From: Lachnospiraceae bacterium
GTDB taxonomy: Bacteria; Bacillota_A; Clostridia; Lachnospirales; Lachnospiraceae
NCBI GenBank assembly: GCA_009911175.1
Contig: QXWX01000025.1
Coordinates: 1-64,000 of the forward strand
Direction: 5' to 3'
Length of the DNA: 64,000 bases
The position numbers were made by a program, and so were the translations under genes. The first letter of the stretch is position 1, and the number at the start of each line of letters is the position of its first letter. Below, in pieces: positions 594 through 11,378 of this stretch. The notes under the pieces were generated by a model. The model had not been told where the DNA came from. It made no database searches and saw nothing but the letters and a program-made list of their open reading frames with translations.

Positions 594-622
594 CAGAAAG
601 GCTGCCAGTGGCAGGCTTTCTG
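594..622 (-). terminator. hairpin just downstream of sleC
   Basis: CAGAAAG (594-600) pairs with CTTTCTG (616-622), with a further CTGCC/GGCAG stem inside. It starts 13 nt beyond the sleC stop codon and is the probable sleC terminator. Confidence 0.5.
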
Positions 623-634
623 TATCTAACTGTT

Positions 635-1221
635 TCAGGTCAATTCGGCGATCCGGGATACCCCTACATAGATTTCCGATATTTTGTACCAGGTCCGGTA
701 ATCTACCGTGCCGGTCTGGGGAAGCCCGAACACCGACTGGAATACCCGGACGGCTTCCGAAGTCGCCGGGCCGTACATTCCATCCACCTGGATACTCGGT
801 ATGGCAGGGTATGCCCCGGCGATGACATTGATCTGTTCCTGGAGCTGCCGGACCTTATCGCCGCTGGAGCCGTTTTCCAGCACATAGCCGGGCCAGGAGG
901 AGGGAACGCCGGAGATCTCCTGCGCGGTATTGATATACATGTTATCCCCATAATAATACCGCAGGATCTCAATTGCGGAGTAGCCCTGTTCTCCCAGGGA
1001 CATAGACCCCCACTGCTGCATCCAGTTGGGGCAGGACACCCTTTGGCCATCGCAGTACTGGGTCAGGATCGGCTGCCGGACATTGGGCCGGGACAGATAA
1101 TTTGCAAAAAGCTCATCCACGATCACGGAAATCGTATTAAAGTAGTTCCGCTCCGGGATCCATTTGTGGTCAAATGCGGTAGAAGAGGTGATCGTGAAAT
1201 CGTAACCCCGGTTCCGGTACC
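635..1221 (-). CDS. sleC: interrupted spore cortex-lytic enzyme SleC, 3' part
   Basis: This is the C-terminal 194 residues of a SleC-type cortex-lytic enzyme, cut off from its start by the element at 1222-10481. It reads YRNRGYDFTITSS onward to a TGA at 635-637. It holds the second half of the SpoIID-like catalytic region and a C-terminal peptidoglycan-binding domain (about residues 352-420 of the rejoined protein, with DGMYGPAT and AVRVFQ motifs). Eleven codons before the Tyr (a GTG-initiated MLPVESSVVSG) belong to the element, not to SleC, so an independent start there would make a meaningless N-terminus. In the SleC family the enzyme is stored in the spore as a zymogen, is activated by Csp proteases, and degrades cortex at germination. 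As it stands, this fragment should not be functional. Joined to 10478-11187 it completes a 430-residue protein. Confidence 0.88.
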
Positions 1222-1240
1222 CCGAAACCACCGATGATTC
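1218..1240. other. left attachment site (core TACC plus arm)
   Basis: The shared core TACC is at 1218-1221. The element-side arm TGATTC is at 1235-1240, 13 bases inside the core. The right end mirrors this exactly, so the two arms form an inverted repeat when the element is circular. Confidence 0.7.
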
Positions 1241-1276
1241 TACAGGGAGCACTCTGTGGAGTGCTGTTTTCGGCAG

Positions 1277-1543
1277 CTACCGTGTTCCCTCAGAGGCTTC
1301 CGCGCCGTCGATCAGATAATCGTATGACACATGGAAGATCTCCTTTAATGCCTTCAATTCCAGATCAGTTACATACCGTTTATTTGTTTCAATTCTTGTG
1401 ATCACATTTTTATCCATATCATATCCGGCAAGCTGAAGCCGGTAGGCCAAGTCACGCTGAGAATAATTGCTTTTCTTACGAAGCTCGATCAGATGTTTGC
1501 CGACAAGATTTTTCTCCCCTGTCTGTGTTCTTGGTTTTGGCAT
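1277..1543 (-). CDS. XRE-family helix-turn-helix regulator
   Basis: This is an 88-aa protein starting MPKPRTQTGEKN. The start is fixed by AAGGAGG at 1551-1557, 7 nt before the ATG at 1543; an upstream in-frame Met lacks a ribosome binding site. Residues from about 15 to 70 form a Cro/CI-type HTH (LIELRKKSNYSQRDLAYRLQ, then the recognition-helix stretch NVITRIETNKRYVTDLELKALKEIF). It lies just inside the left end of the element, transcribed toward the sleC 3' fragment and divergently from the GH51 gene. It may control element genes or recombinase activity. That is inference from position; nothing in its sequence shows a target. Confidence 0.8.
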   Translation of the reverse strand: MPKPRTQTGEKNLVGKHLIELRKKSNYSQRDLAYRLQLAGYDMDKNVITRIETNKRYVTDLELKALKEIFHVSYDYLIDGAEASEGTR

Positions 1544-1795
1544 AATAAATCCTCCTTTTTCTTGTCTCACTTTCAGCACCTTGCAATGATTTTACTAACG
1601 TTCATGTATGCGAAAGGTTGTAAAAATGAGACGGTCTGATATTTTTAAGAGTACAAAATACCATAGAAAAATCCCTGCCAAAAGCGATGGGAAAATGCCG
1701 CAACATAAACGTAACATAAACCGTCCGGAAAGTGATTTCAAAGTTTTCGTTTACATGCAGTCAGGGTATGGACCGGAAAGAAGTTTGTAAAATTC

Positions 1796-1824
1796 TTGAA
1801 AAAAGGGGCGCTTTTTCCTATAAT
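1796..1824 (+). promoter_or_regulatory. sigma-A promoter for the GH51 gene
   Basis: TTGAAA (1796-1801) is separated by 17 bases from TATAAT (1819-1824). The predicted leader is very short: the AGGAGG ribosome binding site at 1832-1837 begins almost at the expected transcript start. The rest of the 1544-1795 gap is A/T-rich and shows no other gene. Confidence 0.75.
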
Positions 1825-1846
1825 AAAGCTACAGGAGGATACGAGC

Positions 1847-3361
1847 ATGAGAGAAACAAAGATGACGATCGACAAGGCATACAAGGTTTCACCGGTGGAT
1901 CCTAGAATTTTCGGCTCTTTTATCGAGCATTTGGGCAGAGCCGTATACGGCGGGATCTATCAGCCCGGGCACGTGAGCGCAGACGGGGATGGGTTTCGGC
2001 AGGACGTACTGGAACTGGTGAGGGAACTGCGCGTACCAGTGGTGCGCTATCCGGGAGGCAACTATGTGTCTAATTTTTTCTGGGAGGACAGCGTCGGGCC
2101 GGCCCAGGAACGCAAGCCCAGGCTGGATCTGGCCTGGAGGAGCCTGGAGCCGAATACCTTCGGGCTGGGAGAATTTGTGAAATGGGCCGGCAAGGCCGGT
2201 TCGGATGTGATGATGGCGGTAAACCTGGGGACCAGGGGGACAAAGGATGCCTGCAATCTGCTGGAATACTGCAATCACCCTTCCGGGACAAAATACAGCG
2301 ACCTCCGGAGAAAACACGGCGCGGAAGATCCCTATCACATCAAGCTGTGGTGCCTGGGAAATGAGATGGACGGAGAGTGGCAGCTGGGCCACAAGAATAT
2401 GCAGGAATACGGAAGGCTCTCGGAGGAAACGGCCAAAGCCATGAAGCTGATGGATCCTTCCATTGAGCTGGTTTCCTGCGGCAGCTCCTTTATGGGAATG
2501 CCGACATTTCCGCAGTGGGAGGCCACCACGCTGGAATGTAATTATGATTATGTGGATTATATTTCCCTTCACCAGTATTATGGAAATGAAGCTCAGGACA
2601 GCGCCGATTTTCTGGCTCTTTCGGATGATATGGAGAAATTCATCCATACGGTGGTGTCGGTCTGCGATTTTGTGAAGGCAAAAAAACGCGGCAGCAGGAA
2701 GATCAATCTCAGCTTTGACGAGTGGAACGTGTGGTATCATTCGAAAGACGAAGAAATGGACATCACACAGAATCATCCCTGGCAGATTGGTCCCCGTCTC
2801 CTGGAGGATCATTATAACTTTGAAGACGCGCTGGTGGTGGGGCTGATGCTGATCACGCTGCTCAAACATGCGGACAGGGTAAAGATCGCGTGTCTGGCGC
2901 AGCTTGTCAATGTCATCGCGCCGATCATGACCGACGCGCAGGGCGGTGCATGGAAGCAGACGATTTTTTATCCTTTCCTGCATGCTTCCGCCTATGGCAG
3001 GGGAACGGTCATTGAGACGATCATTGACACCCCTCTTCATCAGACCAGCGGACACGGGGCAGTGACCGATGTAGTCAGCGTGGCGGTGTATCAGGAGGAA
3101 AAAGAGGAGCTTACAGTTTTTGCGGTGAACAGGAATCTGGAAGAGGACCAGCACATGAGTATAGACCTGAGAAGCTTTGAGGGATATGGGATTTTGGAAA
3201 AGCTGGAGCTGGTTTCGGAGGATCTGAAGGCGGAGAACTCCCTGTTTGAAGAAAAGGTGGCTCCTATCCGGGATACAAATGTCAGGATGGACGGACAGAG
3301 AGCGGAGACGGTGCTGAAAAAGGCATCCTGGAATGTGATCCGGTTCGGAAAGTCAGAATAG
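1847..3361 (+). CDS. GH51 alpha-L-arabinofuranosidase
   Basis: This 504-aa intracellular retaining glycosidase removes terminal alpha-L-arabinofuranosyl groups from arabino-oligosaccharides. The ATG at 1847 follows AGGAGG at 1832-1837. GH51 hallmarks are visible: VRYPGGNYVSNFFWEDSVGP near residue 66, the acid/base Glu173 in WCLGNEMDG, and the nucleophile Glu292 in LSFDEWNVWY. Length and spacing match bacterial GH51 enzymes such as Geobacillus AbfA. A small beta-sandwich domain follows the (beta/alpha)8 barrel, and there is no signal peptide. It is the first cargo gene of the sleC element and has its own promoter and a downstream hairpin, so it is transcribed independently. No arabinan transporter or other arabinose gene lies beside it, so it looks like a stand-alone metabolic passenger. 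Confidence 0.93.
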   Translation: MRETKMTIDKAYKVSPVDPRIFGSFIEHLGRAVYGGIYQPGHVSADGDGFRQDVLELVRELRVPVVRYPGGNYVSNFFWEDSVGPAQERKPRLDLAWRSLEPNTFGLGEFVKWAGKAGSDVMMAVNLGTRGTKDACNLLEYCNHPSGTKYSDLRRKHGAEDPYHIKLWCLGNEMDGEWQLGHKNMQEYGRLSEETAKAMKLMDPSIELVSCGSSFMGMPTFPQWEATTLECNYDYVDYISLHQYYGNEAQDSADFLALSDDMEKFIHTVVSVCDFVKAKKRGSRKINLSFDEWNVWYHSKDEEMDITQNHPWQIGPRLLEDHYNFEDALVVGLMLITLLKHADRVKIACLAQLVNVIAPIMTDAQGGAWKQTIFYPFLHASAYGRGTVIETIIDTPLHQTSGHGAVTDVVSVAVYQEEKEELTVFAVNRNLEEDQHMSIDLRSFEGYGILEKLELVSEDLKAENSLFEEKVAPIRDTNVRMDGQRAETVLKKASWNVIRFGKSE

Positions 3362-3376
3362 AATACGAAAGAAAGG

Positions 3377-3406
3377 GCGCGGCCGGAACATGGCTGCGTC
3401 TTTTTT
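3377..3406 (+). terminator. terminator after the GH51 gene
   Basis: An 8-bp stem (3377-3384 with 3392-3399, two G-U pairs) runs directly into T6 at 3401-3406. The following 150 bases up to the marR promoter are A-rich and show no gene. Confidence 0.6.
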
Positions 3407-3557
3407 GATGAAAGCGCGCGGAAAAAAGCAGCATCTCAGAGCGATTCGTAAGAGACGCGGAAGCCGGCAGGAAATATAAAAACACAGCGCATAATTCGAT
3501 ATCAAACTAAATTATAGATAAAAAGTATAAAAAAATCATGAAATAAAGAGTCCTGTA

Positions 3558-3604
3558 TTGACAAATATTGTGAATAAACATAAAATAACCGTTAGACGTC
3601 TAAC
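3558..3604 (+). promoter_or_regulatory. marR-ABC promoter with palindromic operator
   Basis: TTGACA (3558-3563), 17 bases, TAAAAT (3581-3586). Just downstream, over the expected start point, is the perfect 14-bp palindrome GTTAGACGTCTAAC (3591-3604). A palindrome here is the usual place for autorepression by the MarR protein encoded next. Confidence 0.8.
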
Positions 3605-3627
3605 TAAATGAGAGGAGGAGAGACAGG

Positions 3628-4092
3628 ATGGATATGAATGTGGATCATATGCAGACTCTGGGAGTGCTGGCCCAGGTGACACACCTGAGCAGCTGCCACG
3701 CAAAGGAGATGTTCGGAAAGTATGATTTAAAGCCGGGCCATGCGGGAATATTATTTGTATTGAATCAGGAAGGGGAGCTGTCCCAGAGAGAGCTTGCCAA
3801 AAAGATGAACCTGACGCCCCCCACCATCACCTCAGTCATCCAGAAGATGGAAAAGCTGGAGTATATCCGGCGCAAGCCGGACGAAAAGGATCAGCGGGTC
3901 CTGCGGCTTTGCGTTACGGAGAAGGGGAAGGCTTTTATTGATGACATCTGCAGGGTAGGGAAACAGATTGAGGAAATGGTGTTCCGGGGAATGAGTATGG
4001 AGGAGACTCTGCTGCTGAAGCGCCTGCTCGTACAGGTCCGGGATAACCTGATGGAAGGTCAGGATCCTTCCGCCTTGCGGCCGCCGATGTGA
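3628..4092 (+). CDS. MarR-family transcriptional regulator
   Basis: This 154-aa winged-helix regulator has its ATG after GAGGAGG. The HTH and wing are clear: QRELAKKMNLTPPTITSVIQKMEKLEYIRRKPDEKDQRVLRLCVTEKGKA (about residues 55-105), with the DxRxx-type wing (DEKDQR). It probably represses its own operon through the palindrome at 3591-3604 until a ligand, likely a toxic small molecule, is bound. The two ABC exporter genes follow 37 bp downstream in the same direction. MarR-linked pairs of this type commonly act in drug or host-compound efflux; the substrate cannot be read from the sequence. Confidence 0.9.
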   Translation: MDMNVDHMQTLGVLAQVTHLSSCHAKEMFGKYDLKPGHAGILFVLNQEGELSQRELAKKMNLTPPTITSVIQKMEKLEYIRRKPDEKDQRVLRLCVTEKGKAFIDDICRVGKQIEEMVFRGMSMEETLLLKRLLVQVRDNLMEGQDPSALRPPM

Positions 4093-4129
4093 TGGCGCGA
4101 AGTGACCAACTTGTGAAAGGAGACGAACG

Positions 4130-6391
4130 ATGCGAAAATTATTTCAATATATGGGGATGTACTGGAAAACGGTGCTCCTTGTGTTCCTGATCCTGATCGT
4201 GCAGGCATATTGTGATCTGTCCCTGCCGGCCTACACCTCGGACATTGTCAACGTGGGCATCCAGCAGGGCGGGATCAGTGAGCCGGTTCCGAAAGCTGTT
4301 TCCCGGGAAGGGATGGAACAGATCCTGATCTTCCTTCCGGATCCGGAGGACCAGGAGAAGGTATGGGATGCCTATGAGGAGGATTCCCATGTCTATGACA
4401 AAGCGGCATTTGTCTTAAAGGACAGCATGCAGAAAGAGGCAGAAGAGGGCGGTGAAGCCTATGACGAGCTCTCGGAGATCCTGAGCCTGCCTATGATGCT
4501 CATTCAGGGTTTTTCCTCCGGAAGCGATACCACGGAGCAGATCCAGGCACAGCTTATGGCAGGAATCCCTGCGGAAATGGTGCCGGAGGACGGGGATTTA
4601 TTCGATATCCTTGGAATGCTCCCTCCAGAGCAGGTGGAGCAGATGCTGGAAGAGATCCGAAGCCAGACGGCGGATATGCCGGAAACGATCCTGGAGCAGG
4701 CGGCCATCTCTTATGTGAAAACAGCCTATCAGGAGCTGGGAATGGATCTGGATCGACTGCAGCTCGGATATCTCACAAGGACCGGAGCGAAGATGATCGG
4801 GCTCGCCTTTCTGGGCATGCTCTCCAGCGTCATGGTAGGACTTCTGGCCTCCAGAGTAGGAGCGGCTTCCGGGCGGGATCTGCGGGGAAAAGTATTCCGT
4901 AAGGTGGTGGGCTTTTCTAACAATGAATTTGACCAGTTTTCCACGGCCTCTCTCATCACCCGGAGCACCAACGACATCCAGCAGATCCAGATGCTCATGG
5001 TCATGCTGCTGCGCATGGTACTGTATGCGCCGATCCTGGCGGCAGGGGGGATCTACCAGGTATTCCGGACCAATGTGTCCATGTCCTGGATCATTGGGCT
5101 GGCAGTCCTCCTGATCGGGCTTGTGATCCTGCTGCTCTTTACGGTAGCCATGCCCAAGTTTAAGATCATGCAGAAGCTGGTAGACCGGCTGAATCTGGTG
5201 ACAAGGGAGATCCTGACCGGGCTTTCCGTGATCCGGGCATTCAGCACGGAAAAGCATGAGGAAAAACGGTTTGACACGGCGAATCTGGATCTGACCAGGA
5301 CGAACCTGTTTGTCAATCGGGCCATGACCTTTATGATGCCTTTGATGATGATCATTATGAACGGTGTCTCAGTCCTGATCATCTGGACCGGGGCACACGG
5401 AATCAACGAGGGGCAGATGCAGGTCGGGGATATGATGGCATTTATCCAGTACACCATGCAGATCATCATGAGCTTCCTGATGCTGTGCATGATCTCCATA
5501 ATGCTGCCCAGAGCGGCTGTGGCGGCGGAGCGTGTGGATGAAGTGCTGACCAGCGAGACGTTGATCCACGATCCGAAGGAACCTGAGCGGCTTCCGGAAA
5601 AAACAGAAGGAGTGCTGCGCTTTGACCGCGTATCCTTCCGGTATCCGGGGGCCGATGAGGATGTGCTCCACGATATCACATTTACGGCAAAGCCGGGCGA
5701 GACGACAGCCATCATCGGAAGCACCGGAAGCGGAAAATCCACCCTGGTTAATCTAATCCCCCGTTTTTACGATGTGACAGAGGGCTCCATCACCCTGGAC
5801 GGCATCGATATCCGGGAGATTCGCCAGCATGATCTGCGGGAAAAGCTGGGCTATGTGCCTCAGAAGGGAGTGCTGTTCTCCGGGACCATCGGCTCCAACA
5901 TCCTGTTCGGGAATCAAAAAGGGTCCGACGGGGAAATGCAGGAGGCTGCGGAGATCGCTCAGGCCATGGAATTTATCGAAACGAAGCCGGACCGGTTTGA
6001 AAGTTCCATCTCCCAGGGCGGGGCAAATGTTTCCGGCGGGCAGAAGCAGCGCCTGTCCATCGCGAGAGCGGTGGCAAAGCATCCGGATGTATTCATTTTT
6101 GACGACAGCTTTTCCGCGCTGGACTATAAGACCGATGTGACACTGCGGAAGGCTCTGAAGGAAAAGACAGAAAACAGTACGGTCCTGATCGTGGCGCAGC
6201 GGATCAGCACCATTCTCCATGCGGAGCAGATCATTGTACTGGACGATGGAGAAGTGGCGGGGATCGGCACCCACAGGGAGCTTTTGAGGGACTGTGAAGT
6301 ATACCGGCAGATTGCGGAATCCCAATTGTCGGAACAGGAGCTTGCCGAAACAGGAATCAATTCCGGAAAGGAGGAACTGACCCATGAGTAG
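4130..6391 (+). CDS. ABC exporter half-transporter A (degenerate catalytic site)
   Basis: This 753-aa membrane-plus-ATPase protein is one half of a heterodimeric type IV ABC exporter. TM1 (about residues 12-32) is followed by an unusually long outside loop (about 35-215) before TM2, then the remaining TM helices to about 470. In the nucleotide-binding domain the Walker A is IIGSTGSGKST (about 528), the signature is VSGGQKQR (about 633), and the Walker B is VFIFDDSFSALD (about 653). Asp replaces the usual catalytic Glu after the Walker B Asp. That is typical of the subunit bearing the degenerate site in heterodimers such as BmrC/BmrD or LmrC/LmrD. It overlaps the next gene by 8 bp, which suggests coupled translation and assembly. 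Confidence 0.92.
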   Translation: MRKLFQYMGMYWKTVLLVFLILIVQAYCDLSLPAYTSDIVNVGIQQGGISEPVPKAVSREGMEQILIFLPDPEDQEKVWDAYEEDSHVYDKAAFVLKDSMQKEAEEGGEAYDELSEILSLPMMLIQGFSSGSDTTEQIQAQLMAGIPAEMVPEDGDLFDILGMLPPEQVEQMLEEIRSQTADMPETILEQAAISYVKTAYQELGMDLDRLQLGYLTRTGAKMIGLAFLGMLSSVMVGLLASRVGAASGRDLRGKVFRKVVGFSNNEFDQFSTASLITRSTNDIQQIQMLMVMLLRMVLYAPILAAGGIYQVFRTNVSMSWIIGLAVLLIGLVILLLFTVAMPKFKIMQKLVDRLNLVTREILTGLSVIRAFSTEKHEEKRFDTANLDLTRTNLFVNRAMTFMMPLMMIIMNGVSVLIIWTGAHGINEGQMQVGDMMAFIQYTMQIIMSFLMLCMISIMLPRAAVAAERVDEVLTSETLIHDPKEPERLPEKTEGVLRFDRVSFRYPGADEDVLHDITFTAKPGETTAIIGSTGSGKSTLVNLIPRFYDVTEGSITLDGIDIREIRQHDLREKLGYVPQKGVLFSGTIGSNILFGNQKGSDGEMQEAAEIAQAMEFIETKPDRFESSISQGGANVSGGQKQRLSIARAVAKHPDVFIFDDSFSALDYKTDVTLRKALKEKTENSTVLIVAQRISTILHAEQIIVLDDGEVAGIGTHRELLRDCEVYRQIAESQLSEQELAETGINSGKEELTHE

Positions 6392-8222
6392 AGAGCAGAG
6401 AAGAGGGCCTGTGGGCCGGGGGCACGGCCATGGGATGAGGCCGGGAGAAAAAGCGAAGGATTTTAAGGGCACCATCAAAAAGCTGGTCCGCTACATGAGC
6501 ATCTACAAAATTCAGATGCTGTTTGTACTGATCTTTGCGGTGGGCGGCACGATCTTCAATATCCTGGGGCCGAAGATCCTGGGGAAGGCGACGACAGAGA
6601 TTTTCAACGGCCTGGTCAGCAGGGTATCCGGAACCGGCGGCATGGATTTTGAAAAGATTGGACGGATCCTGCTGCTGACGCTGGGACTCTATGGGGTGAG
6701 CGCGCTATTTTCCTTTATCCAGGGATATATCATGACCGGGATCTCCCAGAAGACGACCTACCGCTTCCGAAAGGCGATCTCGGAGAAGATCAACCGGATG
6801 CCTATGAGTTACTTTGACAAAATGACCTATGGGGAGGTCCTTTCTCGGGTCACGAACGACGTGGATACGCTGGGGCAGAGCCTGAATCAGAGCGCCACAC
6901 AGATGATCACCTCCGTGACCCAGATGGTGGGCGTGCTGATCATGATGCTTTCCATCAGTCCGCTGATGACACTGGTCGCGCTTCTGATGCTGCCGGTTTC
7001 CGTTGCCATGATCTCCCTTATCATGGCCAAATCCCAGAAATATTTCCGGGGACAGCAGGAGTTTCTGGGAAATGTAAACGGCCAGGTGGAGGAGGTCTAT
7101 TCGGGCCACAATATCATCAAGGCGTTTAACAAGGAAGAGGAGACAATAGAAACCTTTGAAAAGACGAACCAGCAGCTGTATGATTCTGCGTGGAAATCTC
7201 AGTTCTTGTCCGGCATGATGATGCCCATCATGCAGTTTGTGGGCAATCTGGGCTATGTGGGAGTGGCCATCCTGGGCGGCTATCTGGCCATCAAGCAGGC
7301 CATTGAGGTGGGGGATATCCAGTCCTTTACCCAGTATGTGCGGAACTTCACCCAGCCCATCCAGCAGGTGGCACAGGTGGCGAACATGCTGCAGTCCACC
7401 GCGGCGGCTTCGGAGCGTGTCTTTGCGTTTCTGGAGGAAGAGGAGGAGGACCAGACCGTGCCGGATCCGGTATCCGTGGACGGCCTTCTGGGAAATGTAG
7501 AATTTTCCCATGTGCATTTCGGCTATGATCCGGAGAAAACCATCATCCATGATTTTTCCGCAAAGGTCACGGAAGGGCAGAAGATTGCCATCGTAGGTCC
7601 CACCGGAGCCGGAAAGACCACCATGATCAAGCTCCTGATGCGGTTCTATGACGTGAACAGCGGGGCCATCCTGATTGACGGCCACAATGTCCGGGACTTT
7701 AACCGCAGCGAGCTCCGCATGATGTTCGGTATGGTACTGCAGGATACCTGGCTGTTCCACGGCAGCATCCGGGACAATATCCGGTATGGGAAGCTGAATG
7801 CCACCGACGAGGAAGTGGTCGCGGCGGCGAAGGCAGCCAGAGTGCACCGGTTTGTACAGACTCTGCCGGGCGGGTATGATATGGAATTGAATGAGGAAGC
7901 CAGCAATGTGTCCCAGGGACAGAAGCAGCTCCTGACCATTGCCAGGGCCATTCTGGCAGATCCGAAGATCCTGATCCTGGATGAGGCCACCAGCTCCGTG
8001 GATACCCGGACGGAGATACAGATTCAGAAGGCTATGGACACCCTGATGAGGGGAAGGACCAGCTTTGTGATCGCCCATCGGCTCTCCACCATCCGGGACG
8101 CGGACCTGATCCTGGTCATGAAGGACGGAGATATCGTGGAACAGGGAAATCACGAGGAATTGATCGCAAAGGGCGGATTCTATGCGGAATTGTATAATTC
8201 CCAGTTTGAGAAGACGGCATAA
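6384..8222 (+). CDS. ABC exporter half-transporter B (canonical site)
   Basis: This 612-aa protein is the partner of the preceding subunit. A glycine/histidine/arginine-rich N-terminus of about 25 residues leads into six TM helices, then an ATPase domain with Walker A IVGPTGAGKTT (about 402), signature VSQGQKQLL (about 508) and Walker B ILILDEATSSVD (about 528) with the catalytic Glu intact. One degenerate and one canonical subunit together indicate a heterodimeric exporter of the multidrug type. The ATG overlaps the end of the upstream gene. The 180-bp gap after it holds an AGCCAGCT/AGCTGGCT inverted repeat but no clear U-tract terminator. Confidence 0.92.
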   Translation: MSREQRRGPVGRGHGHGMRPGEKAKDFKGTIKKLVRYMSIYKIQMLFVLIFAVGGTIFNILGPKILGKATTEIFNGLVSRVSGTGGMDFEKIGRILLLTLGLYGVSALFSFIQGYIMTGISQKTTYRFRKAISEKINRMPMSYFDKMTYGEVLSRVTNDVDTLGQSLNQSATQMITSVTQMVGVLIMMLSISPLMTLVALLMLPVSVAMISLIMAKSQKYFRGQQEFLGNVNGQVEEVYSGHNIIKAFNKEEETIETFEKTNQQLYDSAWKSQFLSGMMMPIMQFVGNLGYVGVAILGGYLAIKQAIEVGDIQSFTQYVRNFTQPIQQVAQVANMLQSTAAASERVFAFLEEEEEDQTVPDPVSVDGLLGNVEFSHVHFGYDPEKTIIHDFSAKVTEGQKIAIVGPTGAGKTTMIKLLMRFYDVNSGAILIDGHNVRDFNRSELRMMFGMVLQDTWLFHGSIRDNIRYGKLNATDEEVVAAAKAARVHRFVQTLPGGYDMELNEEASNVSQGQKQLLTIARAILADPKILILDEATSSVDTRTEIQIQKAMDTLMRGRTSFVIAHRLSTIRDADLILVMKDGDIVEQGNHEELIAKGGFYAELYNSQFEKTA

Positions 8223-8404
8223 GGATCGGGCCGACAGAGGGCAGAGCAGCCAGCTCCGGCATCCGTAAGAAAAAAGGAAGCGCAAATGTAAAACACATTG
8301 ATTCAGGCAGCTGGCTTTGCAGAAGGAGGAATAGAATCTGGCTTTGGGAAATAGTTATAGTAGAAAAGCTCTGTCAGAGATATGCGGGAGATTCAGGAGA
8401 AGTT

Positions 8405-8596
8405 ATGTCTGAGAATGAATATCGGCAGGTTTGCATGGACGTAGAGGGCATCAATGTGATTTTGGAATTTCCGGCGGAACAGCCATCTGGACAGGAAGGA
8501 GAACGCTCGGGAATCGAGTCAGGAGATGAAGAGCAGTTGAAACAGGAAATCCGGGAAATCCTGACCAGTGTATTGCTGGAAAAAATGAAATTATGA
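8405..8596 (+). CDS. small acidic protein next to the recombinase
   Basis: This 63-aa protein starts at the ATG at 8405 with AGGAG at 8395-8399. It is rich in Glu and Gln (EEQLKQEIREILTSVLLEKMKL at the C-terminus looks like one amphipathic helix). I do not recognise a family. It sits between the exporter genes and the recombinase, and a hairpin begins 25 bp downstream. Small helical proteins beside serine integrases are often recombination directionality factors, so this is a candidate excision factor, but no sequence motif supports that directly. Confidence 0.6.
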   Translation: MSENEYRQVCMDVEGINVILEFPAEQPSGQEGERSGIESGDEEQLKQEIREILTSVLLEKMKL

Positions 8597-8620
8597 TTTT
8601 TCTGCGTTACTATTCATGGT

Positions 8621-8656
8621 GGGGCAGTCGGAAAATGTGGATTTTTCGACTGCCCC
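8621..8656. terminator. hairpin between small ORF and recombinase
   Basis: GGGGCAGTCG (8621-8630) pairs with CGACTGCCCC (8647-8656), with A4/T4 inside the stem. It lies 74 bp before the recombinase start, so it may insulate the recombinase from upstream transcription. Its left half closely resembles the left end of the repeat at 35111-35210. Confidence 0.55.
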
Positions 8657-8710
8657 ATTGCATTTCAGGAATAGGACGTGCCTCAAAATAATAGGAATAT
8701 TAGAAACCGG

Positions 8711-8731
8711 ATCACTGTGCCAGGCAGTGAT
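8711..8731. promoter_or_regulatory. inverted repeat over the recombinase start codon
   Basis: ATCACTG (8711-8717) and CAGTGAT (8725-8731) are perfect 7-bp arms around a 7-base spacer. The second arm includes the first two bases of the ATG at 8730. In RNA it would hide the start, and in DNA it could be an operator. No strong ribosome binding site precedes the ATG, so the recombinase may be poorly translated by default. Confidence 0.5.
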
Positions 8732-10400
8732 GGAAAAGGAAGCGGATCGTTCTGTGAAGCGTGTCAGAATGCTGCTGCGGGTCAGCTCCAATCAGCAGCT
8801 GGAAGCAGACGGGGACCTGTCGGTCCAAAGACAGATCGTGCTGGATTATATCGGACAGCACGAGGACTGGGTGGCGGATGAAAAAGAATACTTTGAGGGG
8901 AGTAGAAGCGGCTACAAACATGCGGTCTCCAAAAGGGAAACACTCCAGGAGGCGCTGGAGGATGCCAGGAAGCGGGAATATGAGATCCTGGCGGCTTATA
9001 AGGATGACCGGGTGGGAAGGCGCATGTGGGAGATGGGAGCCTATATCATGGCTTTAAAAAGCTGCGGGGTAGATGTTTATACGGTAAAGGACGGATGCAT
9101 CAGCCCGGAGGCGGATGATATTATGGGGCAGATGATACTGGCCCTCCGCTATGGAAATGCCCAGAAGAGCAGCTCGGATACCGGGATGCGGGTAAAGGAT
9201 ACGGCCCAGAAGCTGGTGCAGAAGGGAAAATTCATGGGCGGGGCGGCGCCTTACGGATATGAGCTCGTACTGTCCGGGGAGCTGAGCAAGCATGGGCGTG
9301 CCCTGCACACCTTGAAGATCGTTCCGCGGCAGGCGGAGACGGTAAAGCACATCTATTCATTGTCTTTGAATCAGGAATACGGCTCTGTGAAAATCGCAAA
9401 CATTTTAAATGAAGATCCCTGTTACAGACAGCTTGCGCCCCGGGATGTGTGGAAGGCCGGAACGATCACCAGTATTCTGACCAATCCCGTGTATGCAGGC
9501 TATACGGCATATAAAAGGCGGGAACGGATCAATGGAACATACCATCGTCTGGACCAGTCGGACTGGATCAGGGCAGAAGCGCCCAATGAGGAAATCCGGA
9601 TCATTGAGGAGGATATATGGAACCGGGTACAGGAAAAAAGAAAGAGAAGGTCGGACCGATACCAAAAGAAGCGGGAGGACCAGGCGGTTTCTGTGATCAG
9701 AAGGAATGACGGGATGCTCCCTCTGATTGATGTGAGTTACTGCGGATACTGCGGGGGGAAGCTTATCAACGGGAGCCGGTACCATTACTGGACGATCAAA
9801 GGTACCGGGGAAAGGAGATCCAGCAGGACTCCGATGTACCGATGCCGGAATGGGGATGGAATGGCAGATCATCCGACAGCACTGTTCCATGCGGAGAGGA
9901 TGGAAAGGGCGGTATTCCAATGTCTTGGGGAATATATTGAGAGACTTCTGGAAAACGAGGATGCTGACGCTGCTGTTTTTGAAAAGCTGAAAACCAGAAA
10001 AAAAATTGCGGAAGCAGAATGGAAGAAGGAAGAGGCGTTACTGCGAAAACTGCAAAAAGGGATCGAAGTGATGGAAGGAAAGATCCCGGACGCGATCACA
10101 GGCGAGTGCGGATTTACGGCGGAAGAGCTGGCGGAAGCCGTCAGAAGCCAGAGAAACAAAGTGCTGGAGCAGGAGCAGGCGGTACAAAGGAGCAGGGAAA
10201 GGCGAAGCAAGCTGGAAGAAAATGCAGGGAAGCGGGAAGAAATCCGGAAAGCAATCCCTCCTTGGAAACAGATTTTTCAGGAAGCGGATTCCGATACGAA
10301 ACGGATTTTAGTTCAAAGGCTGGTAGAACGGATCCAGGTGATGCGGGAGCAGATTCGGATCCGTTTTAAGGAATTGTCAGGAAAGAACTTGTTAATTTGA
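8730..10400 (+). CDS. large serine recombinase (site-specific integrase/excisionase)
   Basis: This is a 556-aa enzyme if started at the ATG at 8730; longer upstream readings run through the hairpin at 8621-8656. The resolvase catalytic domain starts RMLLRVSSNQQ, with the nucleophile probably Ser19, and continues through YKDDRVGRR. The Recombinase domain follows (GKFMGGAAPYGYEL near residue 165, ILTNPVYAGYTAYKRRER near 250-270). Next comes a zinc-ribbon-like region (YCGYCGGKL near 336, YRCRNGDG near 370), then a long charged coiled coil (about 415-490) and a C-terminal helix. This is the architecture of large serine integrases, including the SpoIVCA enzymes that excise skin elements. It lies 78 bp from the right attachment core and is the obvious agent for inserting and removing this element. 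Directional control would need a partner. Confidence 0.93.
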   Translation: MEKEADRSVKRVRMLLRVSSNQQLEADGDLSVQRQIVLDYIGQHEDWVADEKEYFEGSRSGYKHAVSKRETLQEALEDARKREYEILAAYKDDRVGRRMWEMGAYIMALKSCGVDVYTVKDGCISPEADDIMGQMILALRYGNAQKSSSDTGMRVKDTAQKLVQKGKFMGGAAPYGYELVLSGELSKHGRALHTLKIVPRQAETVKHIYSLSLNQEYGSVKIANILNEDPCYRQLAPRDVWKAGTITSILTNPVYAGYTAYKRRERINGTYHRLDQSDWIRAEAPNEEIRIIEEDIWNRVQEKRKRRSDRYQKKREDQAVSVIRRNDGMLPLIDVSYCGYCGGKLINGSRYHYWTIKGTGERRSSRTPMYRCRNGDGMADHPTALFHAERMERAVFQCLGEYIERLLENEDADAAVFEKLKTRKKIAEAEWKKEEALLRKLQKGIEVMEGKIPDAITGECGFTAEELAEAVRSQRNKVLEQEQAVQRSRERRSKLEENAGKREEIRKAIPPWKQIFQEADSDTKRILVQRLVERIQVMREQIRIRFKELSGKNLLI

Positions 10401-10458
10401 CGGCGTATAAATGTTTAGCTGCAAAGAAGATGATCGCAGGCGCAAAAGGTTTCACCAT

Positions 10459-10481
10459 GAATCAGCATTGATCACGCTACC
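10459..10481. other. right attachment site (arm plus core TACC)
   Basis: GAATCA at 10459-10464 lies 13 bases from the core TACC at 10478-10481. Paired with the left end, the circle junction would read GAATCA-N13-TACC-N13-TGATTC, and 12 of the 19 arm positions match as an inverted repeat. Confidence 0.7.
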
Positions 10482-11187
10482 ATTCCGTATACACCCGGTT
10501 CAGGGTAAAGGACATGATCGCCAGCACATTTGCGCGGATGGAAGCCTCGGGCCAGGTGGCGTAGATTTCCGAGGAGGCTACATTTTTGATGTAGTCCCGG
10601 TATTTCACATAATAATTCTGTGCCGTAGTGTCCCGGGGCGAACCGTCATGCACCACGATATACTCCGGCACGACCACCCTGCTCAGTACGATCTCCCCGG
10701 ATTCATTGGTGGGCTTGATCTCGTCCTCCGCAATTTTCGGGGGATATTCCCCGTACAGGGTATGGGCAGGGATGACAAAGACCTCTTCTCCTGTATCCGC
10801 TGGCGTCAGCGGACGGAGCCGTACATTCTGGATTGCCGTGACATCAGGCAGGATCTCGGCTCCGGAAATGCTGACCGGCTCAAAGCCAGGTGCCCGCACA
10901 TCCAGCGTATATTCCGCGTAAGGCTGGGCTTCGATGGACGGATCCAGGCTGTATTCCAGCGGAGGCGCATTCAGTTCGATGGTTTCAGTCTGCCCGGAGC
11001 TGTCTGTGTTCAGCTCCTCCAGCGTGCTGTCCGGAACCCCGGTGTAGGATACGGAGATCACCGCGTCGGACACGGGATAGGAATCCACATCCGAGGTCAC
11101 ATTGATCTGCAGCAATCCCCTTTCAATCTGATCACGCCTTGCCGCGTCATTTTCCGCATTTTCCTGCATTGCCTTAATATAAACCAT
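10477..11187 (-). CDS. sleC: interrupted spore cortex-lytic enzyme SleC, 5' part
   Basis: This is the N-terminal 236 codons of a SleC-type protein. The ATG at 11187 is preceded by AGGGGG at 11193-11198. The first ~170 residues resemble a propeptide region with beta-rich repeats. From VVVPEYIVVHDG (about residue 171) onward the sequence matches mature SleC as I recall it, including KNVASSEIYATWPEASIRAN with candidate catalytic Glu207. The frame ends at ...NRVYTEW followed by TAG, and that stop lies in the element. The next expected residues, Y-K/R-x-R-G-Y, begin the fragment at 1221. Expression in the mother cell or forespore would be expected for this family. A CATATATT sequence about 45 bp upstream of the ATG is a weak candidate for a sporulation-sigma -10 element. 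Confidence 0.88.
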   Translation of the reverse strand: MVYIKAMQENAENDAARRDQIERGLLQINVTSDVDSYPVSDAVISVSYTGVPDSTLEELNTDSSGQTETIELNAPPLEYSLDPSIEAQPYAEYTLDVRAPGFEPVSISGAEILPDVTAIQNVRLRPLTPADTGEEVFVIPAHTLYGEYPPKIAEDEIKPTNESGEIVLSRVVVPEYIVVHDGSPRDTTAQNYYVKYRDYIKNVASSEIYATWPEASIRANVLAIMSFTLNRVYTEW

Positions 11188-11378
11188 AATTCCCCCTGTT
11201 TGAGATATGTTCTATATCAATATATGCAGTTCGGAGGGTTATTGTGTTGTGGCGCGGATAAGCCGTTGCTCCGTCCGGAAATACGGGAGTCCGGTTCTAA
11301 ATGGATGAGTTGTCAAAGAGTGACCCATAGCGCGGACGGAGCACCAGGTGAAAAACAAAAAAGGGGTCTTCTCAAAAA

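Follow-up and report, generated by a model that had tools for sequence, protein, structure and literature searches.

Intervening DNA elements are known in the sporulation genes sigK, spsM, spoVFB, gerE and yabG (PMC10747680). The skin element of C. difficile lies in sigK and carries a serine recombinase, CD1231, and a small acidic directionality factor, CD1234; its precise excision, timed to the mother cell, rebuilds the gene (PMC5025042). In Bacillus, sporulation genes are interrupted by SPbeta (spsM) and vfbin (spoVFB) (PMC10747680), and excision of SPbeta, an active prophage, rebuilds spsM (PMC4191935), while gerE of B. cereus ATCC 10987 is interrupted by gin, an intervening element that is not a prophage (PMC5595907). 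The yin element of C. botulinum, prophage-like and described in PMC10747680 as unique to one strain, interrupts the sigma-K target gene yabG, encodes a recombinase and a small directionality-factor candidate, and has been reported as an excised circle. Here we analyzed a 64,000-nucleotide stretch of DNA (the window) from a Schaedlerella-like Lachnospiraceae host, in which the spore cortex-lytic gene sleC is split by a 9,260-bp element encoding a large serine recombinase.

A preliminary description of the window, made from its letters alone, had compared this locus to the elements in sigK, spoVFB, gerE and spsM, all of which PMC10747680 names, and our analysis bears out that skin-like reading, with developmental regulation of excision remaining inferred. 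Like skin, the sleC element is a serine-recombinase element in a sporulation gene, and precise excision, a small acidic directionality factor and mother-cell timing are here predicted from sequence. Unlike skin, it targets a germination enzyme rather than a regulator (a sigK-like gene was present and uninterrupted in 9/9 genomes searched, above the family cut-off in 7), and its candidate factor is encoded directly upstream of the recombinase. It shares with gin a non-prophage character but differs in target gene and host, and its family extends across many genera; unlike yin, it is recurrent and apparently fixed in its species, although YabG processes pre-pro-SleC in C. difficile, so that yin and the sleC element touch the same germination pathway. 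Unlike SPbeta, it had no phage structural gene by Pfam among seven element ORFs scanned. A skin-like intervening element in a further target gene, with wide and repeated occurrence, is well supported by sequence comparison. The preliminary description knew of no case in sleC, and we likewise found no earlier report in the open full-text literature (titles and abstract starts of the matches listed); as subscription papers and preprints lie mostly outside such a search, the absence of an earlier report is unproven.

The two pieces of sleC lie 9.26 kb apart on the minus strand, a split first proposed from the letters and confirmed here by ORF bounds and by relatives; the break follows codon 236 of 430 (Table 1). 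Both window junctions share GGTA (in sleC sense), as had been noted, and across all relatives read with a break at this position (site A) the smallest common core is the dinucleotide G-T, the hyphen marking the junction. Since G-T alone is common to all relatives, it fits a two-base core and sets the bounds of the element, and it is flanked in the window by GAATC and GATTC, 17-21 bases to either side, resembling attP arms. The predicted product of recombination at this core, an exact in-frame E-W-Y-R join of 430 codons, has a precise natural counterpart in a genome of the same genus (G006), which carries an intact 430-aa ortholog with VYTEWYRNRGYDF across the break position and VYTEW-YRNRGYDF at the join in the protein, with zero residues gained or lost. 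The window N half was 82-83% identical to residues 1-236 of the G006 protein, and the C half 90% identical to residues 237-430. Residues 19-429 of the intact ortholog matched PDB entry 9h68, "Spore cortex-lytic enzyme pre-pro-form", with an E-value of 4.1e-132, which identifies the interrupted gene as sleC and, by full-length similarity to a known SleC, its predicted product as a putative cortex-lytic enzyme. Of the domains first assigned to the joined protein, PG_binding_1 scored above its cut-off, but the SpoIID-like region (residues 193-247, within which the break falls) scored only below curated cut-offs (PF08486, 21.2 vs 23 bits; TIGR02669, 36.4 vs 83.3). The observation of a split, restorable sleC is real. 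Beside the gene, the first 23-44 bases of window positions 600-1300 (600-643) matched 36 other places in the nearest genome and are a short dispersed repeat.

That nearest genome, "Lachnospiraceae bacterium isolate C84_6_DL94_Fmh" (G001), has the identical split (N half 99% identity), as do G005 and G008, the latter being S. arabinosiphila DSM 106076 with the split sleC on a 6.3-Mb contig; three further occurrences exclude chance or misassembly. These four Schaedlerella-type genomes also have the MarR and ABC transporter cargo in common, which suggests that sleC was split before they diverged. Between the window and G001 the C half differs at 9 synonymous and 1 nonsynonymous positions (P 1.7e-5 under neutrality) and the N half at 16 and 3 (P 6.7e-8); between the window and G008 the C half has a dN/dS of 0.020 at a dS of 0.84, and across 6/6 pairs of the four genomes C-half dN/dS is 0.02-0.05 at dS of 0.07-1.6. 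These substitution patterns indicate strong purifying selection on each of the separated halves. A recent pseudogenisation, in which the halves look intact for want of elapsed time, might draw on the intact paralog present in near relatives, but with a split and shared cargo that appear to predate the divergence of the four genomes, and with such low dN/dS in every pair, we regard it as very improbable. Stops were flagged in half matches from seven genomes (G059, G073, G093, G104, G117, G255 and G359); these matches overrun the break, so the stops may lie in the element.

Another reading is that the C half is expressed separately, from a start within the element, and that the two products then reassemble. 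An in-frame ATG, GTG or TTG does occur somewhere upstream in 20/25 detached C halves (25 of 26 loci, L175 having no C half in its locus), but at none of the 25 is such a start preceded by a Shine-Dalgarno sequence matching at 5/6 or more positions, the type and distance of the candidate starts vary among loci, and the break falls inside the SpoIID-like match; the window C half has no ribosome-site-supported start of its own. We consider this explanation scarcely credible. Selection on both halves, together with the lack of a convincing C-half start, argues for regular expression of the halves as a single protein.

The same interruption recurs across Lachnospiraceae. In a set of 134 loci, to which some genomes contributed more than one, a tblastn survey with the G006 SleC put the break behind residue 236 (site A) or at about residue 304 (site B); the exceptions were unclear rows and rows truncated by contig ends (L052, L053 and L125, the last with a shift near residue 50). 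A C half sought in the split genomes was matched in 16/16 and then in 17/17, G130 showing it at a contig edge only and G260 only as the piece before site B. At site B, TGAC was common to 14/15 N junctions and 15/15 C junctions, and the arms differ from those of site A; junction counts here and in Table 1 cover the loci of that comparison without duplicates of one genome (L054-L056, L058, L090, L166, L167), the uninterrupted site A of L167, L169 (G424) and the unclear L053, and G130, a contig edge, was likewise set aside. Each site has its own recombinase: the window type was present in 10/10 site-A elements spanned end to end (the window, L040, L041, L042, L111, L118, L132, L134, L152 and L159), and a second family in 5/5 such site-B elements (L045, L048, L049, L051 and L138). 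Two genomes, G407 (L170) and G418 (L179), have sleC in three pieces, with site-A and site-B elements each bearing its own recombinase family.

We also surveyed 396 Lachnospiraceae genomes, each at least 90% complete, scoring three recombinase candidates per genome. A window-type recombinase at E<=1e-80 was found in 17, and all 17 recombinases (G422 represented by its duplicate G099, with the same contig places) had a piece of a sleC-family gene with the site-A break no more than about 1.1 kb away; for G054 and G191 the C half alone was found, and in G333 the recombinase lies in a 46%-identical SleC paralog broken at the same site, where a 1.9-kb element holds a small ORF and the recombinase at the site-A equivalent (G333:C64, L178, 9595-13023). 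Stops flagged in the recombinase matches of G333, G418 and G423 fall outside open frames of 539-600 aa, and G255 has an additional intact sleC copy. The site-B family is broader (57/396 genomes at the same threshold) and sleC-adjacent only in part; that it is exclusive to sleC is ruled out by, for example, G115, which matches it yet has a sleC frame of 466 aa. Of fourteen site-A elements measured, the shortest (1.9 kb) is that in the G333 paralog and the longest has 15.5 kb, and in the one-contig genomes G336 and G412 a site-A span is about 18 kb and a site-B element about 41 kb. Recombinase distances correlate in part with SleC distances (Spearman 0.54, permutation p 0.001, 22 taxa); the G005 recombinase shares 56% identity with that of the window but 75% with its counterpart in the distant G446, which shows that exchange occurs. 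From these comparisons, interruption of sleC is a recurrent phenomenon with two main attachment sites and many genera.

Some loci fit neither site simply. In G424 (L168, L169) the break is near SleC residue 249, which could reflect another element or an assembly fault, and no recombinase of either family was found in the stretch read around it. Many relatives are draft assemblies, with halves sometimes on separate contigs far from ends; in G209, G117, G103 and G371 the two halves are on different contigs, each about 18 to 230 kb away from the end of its contig, a pattern for which very large elements, rearrangement or misassembly are options. In G336 a lone stretch (G336:C1:858839-858988), some 5.7 kb downstream of the C half, matches SleC residues 380-429 and is perhaps a duplication remnant, and three public SleC-like proteins (P0161, P0185 and P0003) have internal duplications that may be assembly errors.

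The proposed recombinase inside the element, and with it the site-specific insertion put forward in the preliminary description, is borne out by comparison across genomes. Both of its domains scored above cut-off (PF00239, 51.7 bits; PF07508, 62.4 bits), and the RVSS motif, whose serine is the catalytic residue, is kept in 20/20 readable relatives, two others being cut. Its best NCBIfam match was XisF, of the fdxN element, at 75.3 bits; the cut-off is 375, and hence the recombinase is not a member of that family. The fdxN element is excised developmentally in cyanobacterial heterocysts. Directly upstream of the recombinase is encoded an acidic protein of 63 aa that bears the motif VILEFP and for which a structure model was of low confidence (pLDDT 69). 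A small protein stands in this position in 24/24 elements with readable upstream DNA (L148 and L176, cut by contig ends, left out), with a strict [LVI]EFP motif in 17/24 and degenerate forms recognized by eye in 7; by comparison with CD1231/CD1234 of C. difficile it is the best candidate for the directionality factor. At site B no consistent small ORF was found to serve as such a factor (sigma-E-like matches 7/16, with no common position). A hairpin, GGGGCAGTCG...CGACTGCCCC, at window positions 8621-8656, downstream of the small ORF and ahead of the likely start of the recombinase, is a possible attenuator or terminator.

The other element ORFs scanned, besides the recombinase and the small ORF (no family), encode a helix-turn-helix regulator, an arabinofuranosidase, a MarR regulator and two ABC transporter genes; the G001 element is without most of the arabinofuranosidase stretch. 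Prophage-like gene content, typical though not universal for skin-type elements, is thus lacking among these seven ORFs of the window element. A phage or plasmid origin was not upheld, the best-ranked matches being remote (phage 25%, plasmid 24%), and so no donor was found.

Table 1. Features of the split sleC locus and its element in the window
Feature	Position	Strand	Remarks
stop codon of sleC C half	635-637	-	
sleC C half	638..1219	-	194 codons; remaining catalytic region and PG_binding_1
core dinucleotide G-T, C-half junction	1219..1220	-	17/17 distinct site-A C junctions: G last in element before C half
intervening element	1220..10479	.	9,260 bp
cargo: helix-turn-helix regulator	1277..1579	-	
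cargo: alpha-L-arabinofuranosidase	1796..3361	+	
cargo: MarR regulator	3628..4092	+	
cargo: ABC transporter, first gene	4130..6391	+	
cargo: ABC transporter, second gene	6384..8222	+	
63-aa acidic protein with VILEFP motif, candidate recombination directionality factor	8405..8596	+	directly upstream of recombinase
large serine recombinase, Resolvase and Recombinase domains	8616..10400	+	likely start ATG 8730, near onset of similarity to relatives
in-frame TAG ending sleC N half	10477-10479	-	inside element
core dinucleotide G-T, N-half junction	10479..10480	-	17/17 distinct site-A N junctions: T first in element after TGG
sleC N half	10480..11187	-	236 codons; propeptide side and start of SpoIID-like region
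predicted sigma-K-like promoter of sleC	11219..11245	-	AC-N17-CATATATT

Sequences upstream of the genes are consistent with sporulation control. In C. difficile sleC belongs to the sigma-K regulon, and the boxes described there (PMC3789822) gave the pattern AC-N15..17-CATANNNT, which we found upstream of sleC in 51/97 regions against a mean of 3.0 and a maximum of 10 in 100 shuffles, although the regions are related, so that the shuffles overstate independence. Among the split genes printed, 21/30 had the pattern, ending in 18 of the 21 at 28-34 bases before the start. For the small ORF we used a sigma-E-like pattern, ATA-N16-CATA, the form mapped at spoIIID in C. difficile: it preceded the ORF in 8/24 elements vs 1.19 expected (0/300 shuffles reached 8; antisense control 2), the eight elements being related and some matches depending on the chosen start.

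The split, the common core, the recombinase, the exact join, the selection on the halves and the repeated interruption of one and the same base across many genera can all be read in the DNA itself, and we consider it highly probable that the serine-recombinase element splitting sleC is excised at G-T in the sporulating mother cell, rejoining the 430 codons exactly. During sporulation the recombinase and the small upstream protein, as its directionality factor, would recombine attL with attR; excision in the mother cell would rejoin sleC, which would then be transcribed from the sigma-K-like promoter. The forespore chromosome would retain the element, which would thereby be inherited.

A number of observations weigh against excision of this kind. 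No sign of an excised form appeared: a 19-base attP pattern expected of the circle junction was found in 0/12 same-genus genomes, and its single match in viral contigs is a chance match, to a contig that resembles neither the window nor sleC nor the recombinase. The sigma-K-like pattern was absent from 9/30 split genes printed, the small ORF of the window had no sigma-E-like promoter of the exact pattern, and in G333, where the main sleC is also split, the stretch of the element read next to the C half contains no more of a recombinase than a 50-codon fragment. Among the best 120 of 7,988 SleC proteins there was no intact allele of this species, the best N-half identity of any intact protein being 83%. 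Finally, the preliminary description had named as a refutation an intact second sleC that makes the split copy dispensable, and this holds in part: G001, G005 and G008 have intact paralogs in frames of 615-675 aa (G001, 615 aa and 44% identity), 35-46% identical by half. With these paralogs the split copy need not be essential, and germination may not hang wholly on it.

An alternative is an ordinary integrative element with cargo for which sleC is simply attB, excision being rare, unregulated and for transfer only, and sleC lost while the element is integrated. The ABC transporter, MarR and arabinofuranosidase genes, the exchange of cargo and recombinases between elements, and paralogs that could compensate for the loss of sleC all accord with it, but strong purifying selection on both halves with cargo in common (C-half dN/dS 0.02-0.05) does not, nor do the smallest elements (1.9-3.4 kb), which hold little beyond the recombinase (at most 2 other ORFs of at least 100 codons). 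We think this alternative unlikely. Among protein clusters at least 98% identical to the N half (within the best 120 of 5,906) 32/33, from 55 contigs, end at the break or at most 39 residues into non-sleC element sequence; the 33rd, P0143, was rejected as an intact allele, being likely a chimera of this species' N half and an 81%-identical foreign C half. The split form thus looks fixed in the species, as would be expected of an element that is stably inherited and whose excision is not heritable; a never-excised element would give the same pattern, but the selection result speaks against it.

More broadly, we lean towards seeing sleC of Lachnospiraceae as a programmed DNA-splicing locus with a dedicated recombinase family and a second at another codon, its two to three germline pieces being rebuilt in every sporulating mother cell. 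What is interrupted here is the gene for the germination enzyme itself, and the hosts are gut commensals, not Bacillus or a single pathogen strain. With the same base hit across many genera, a second family elsewhere in the gene and two genomes with both, the locus offers a natural experiment on how selfish DNA turns into a fixed, tolerated "DNA intron", and it supplies many sets of recombinase, directionality factor and att sites for testing. In species of this kind, sleC may be recorded as missing or broken by annotation pipelines. If our reading is true, the exit of these gut commensals from dormancy would be tied to self-excising selfish DNA.

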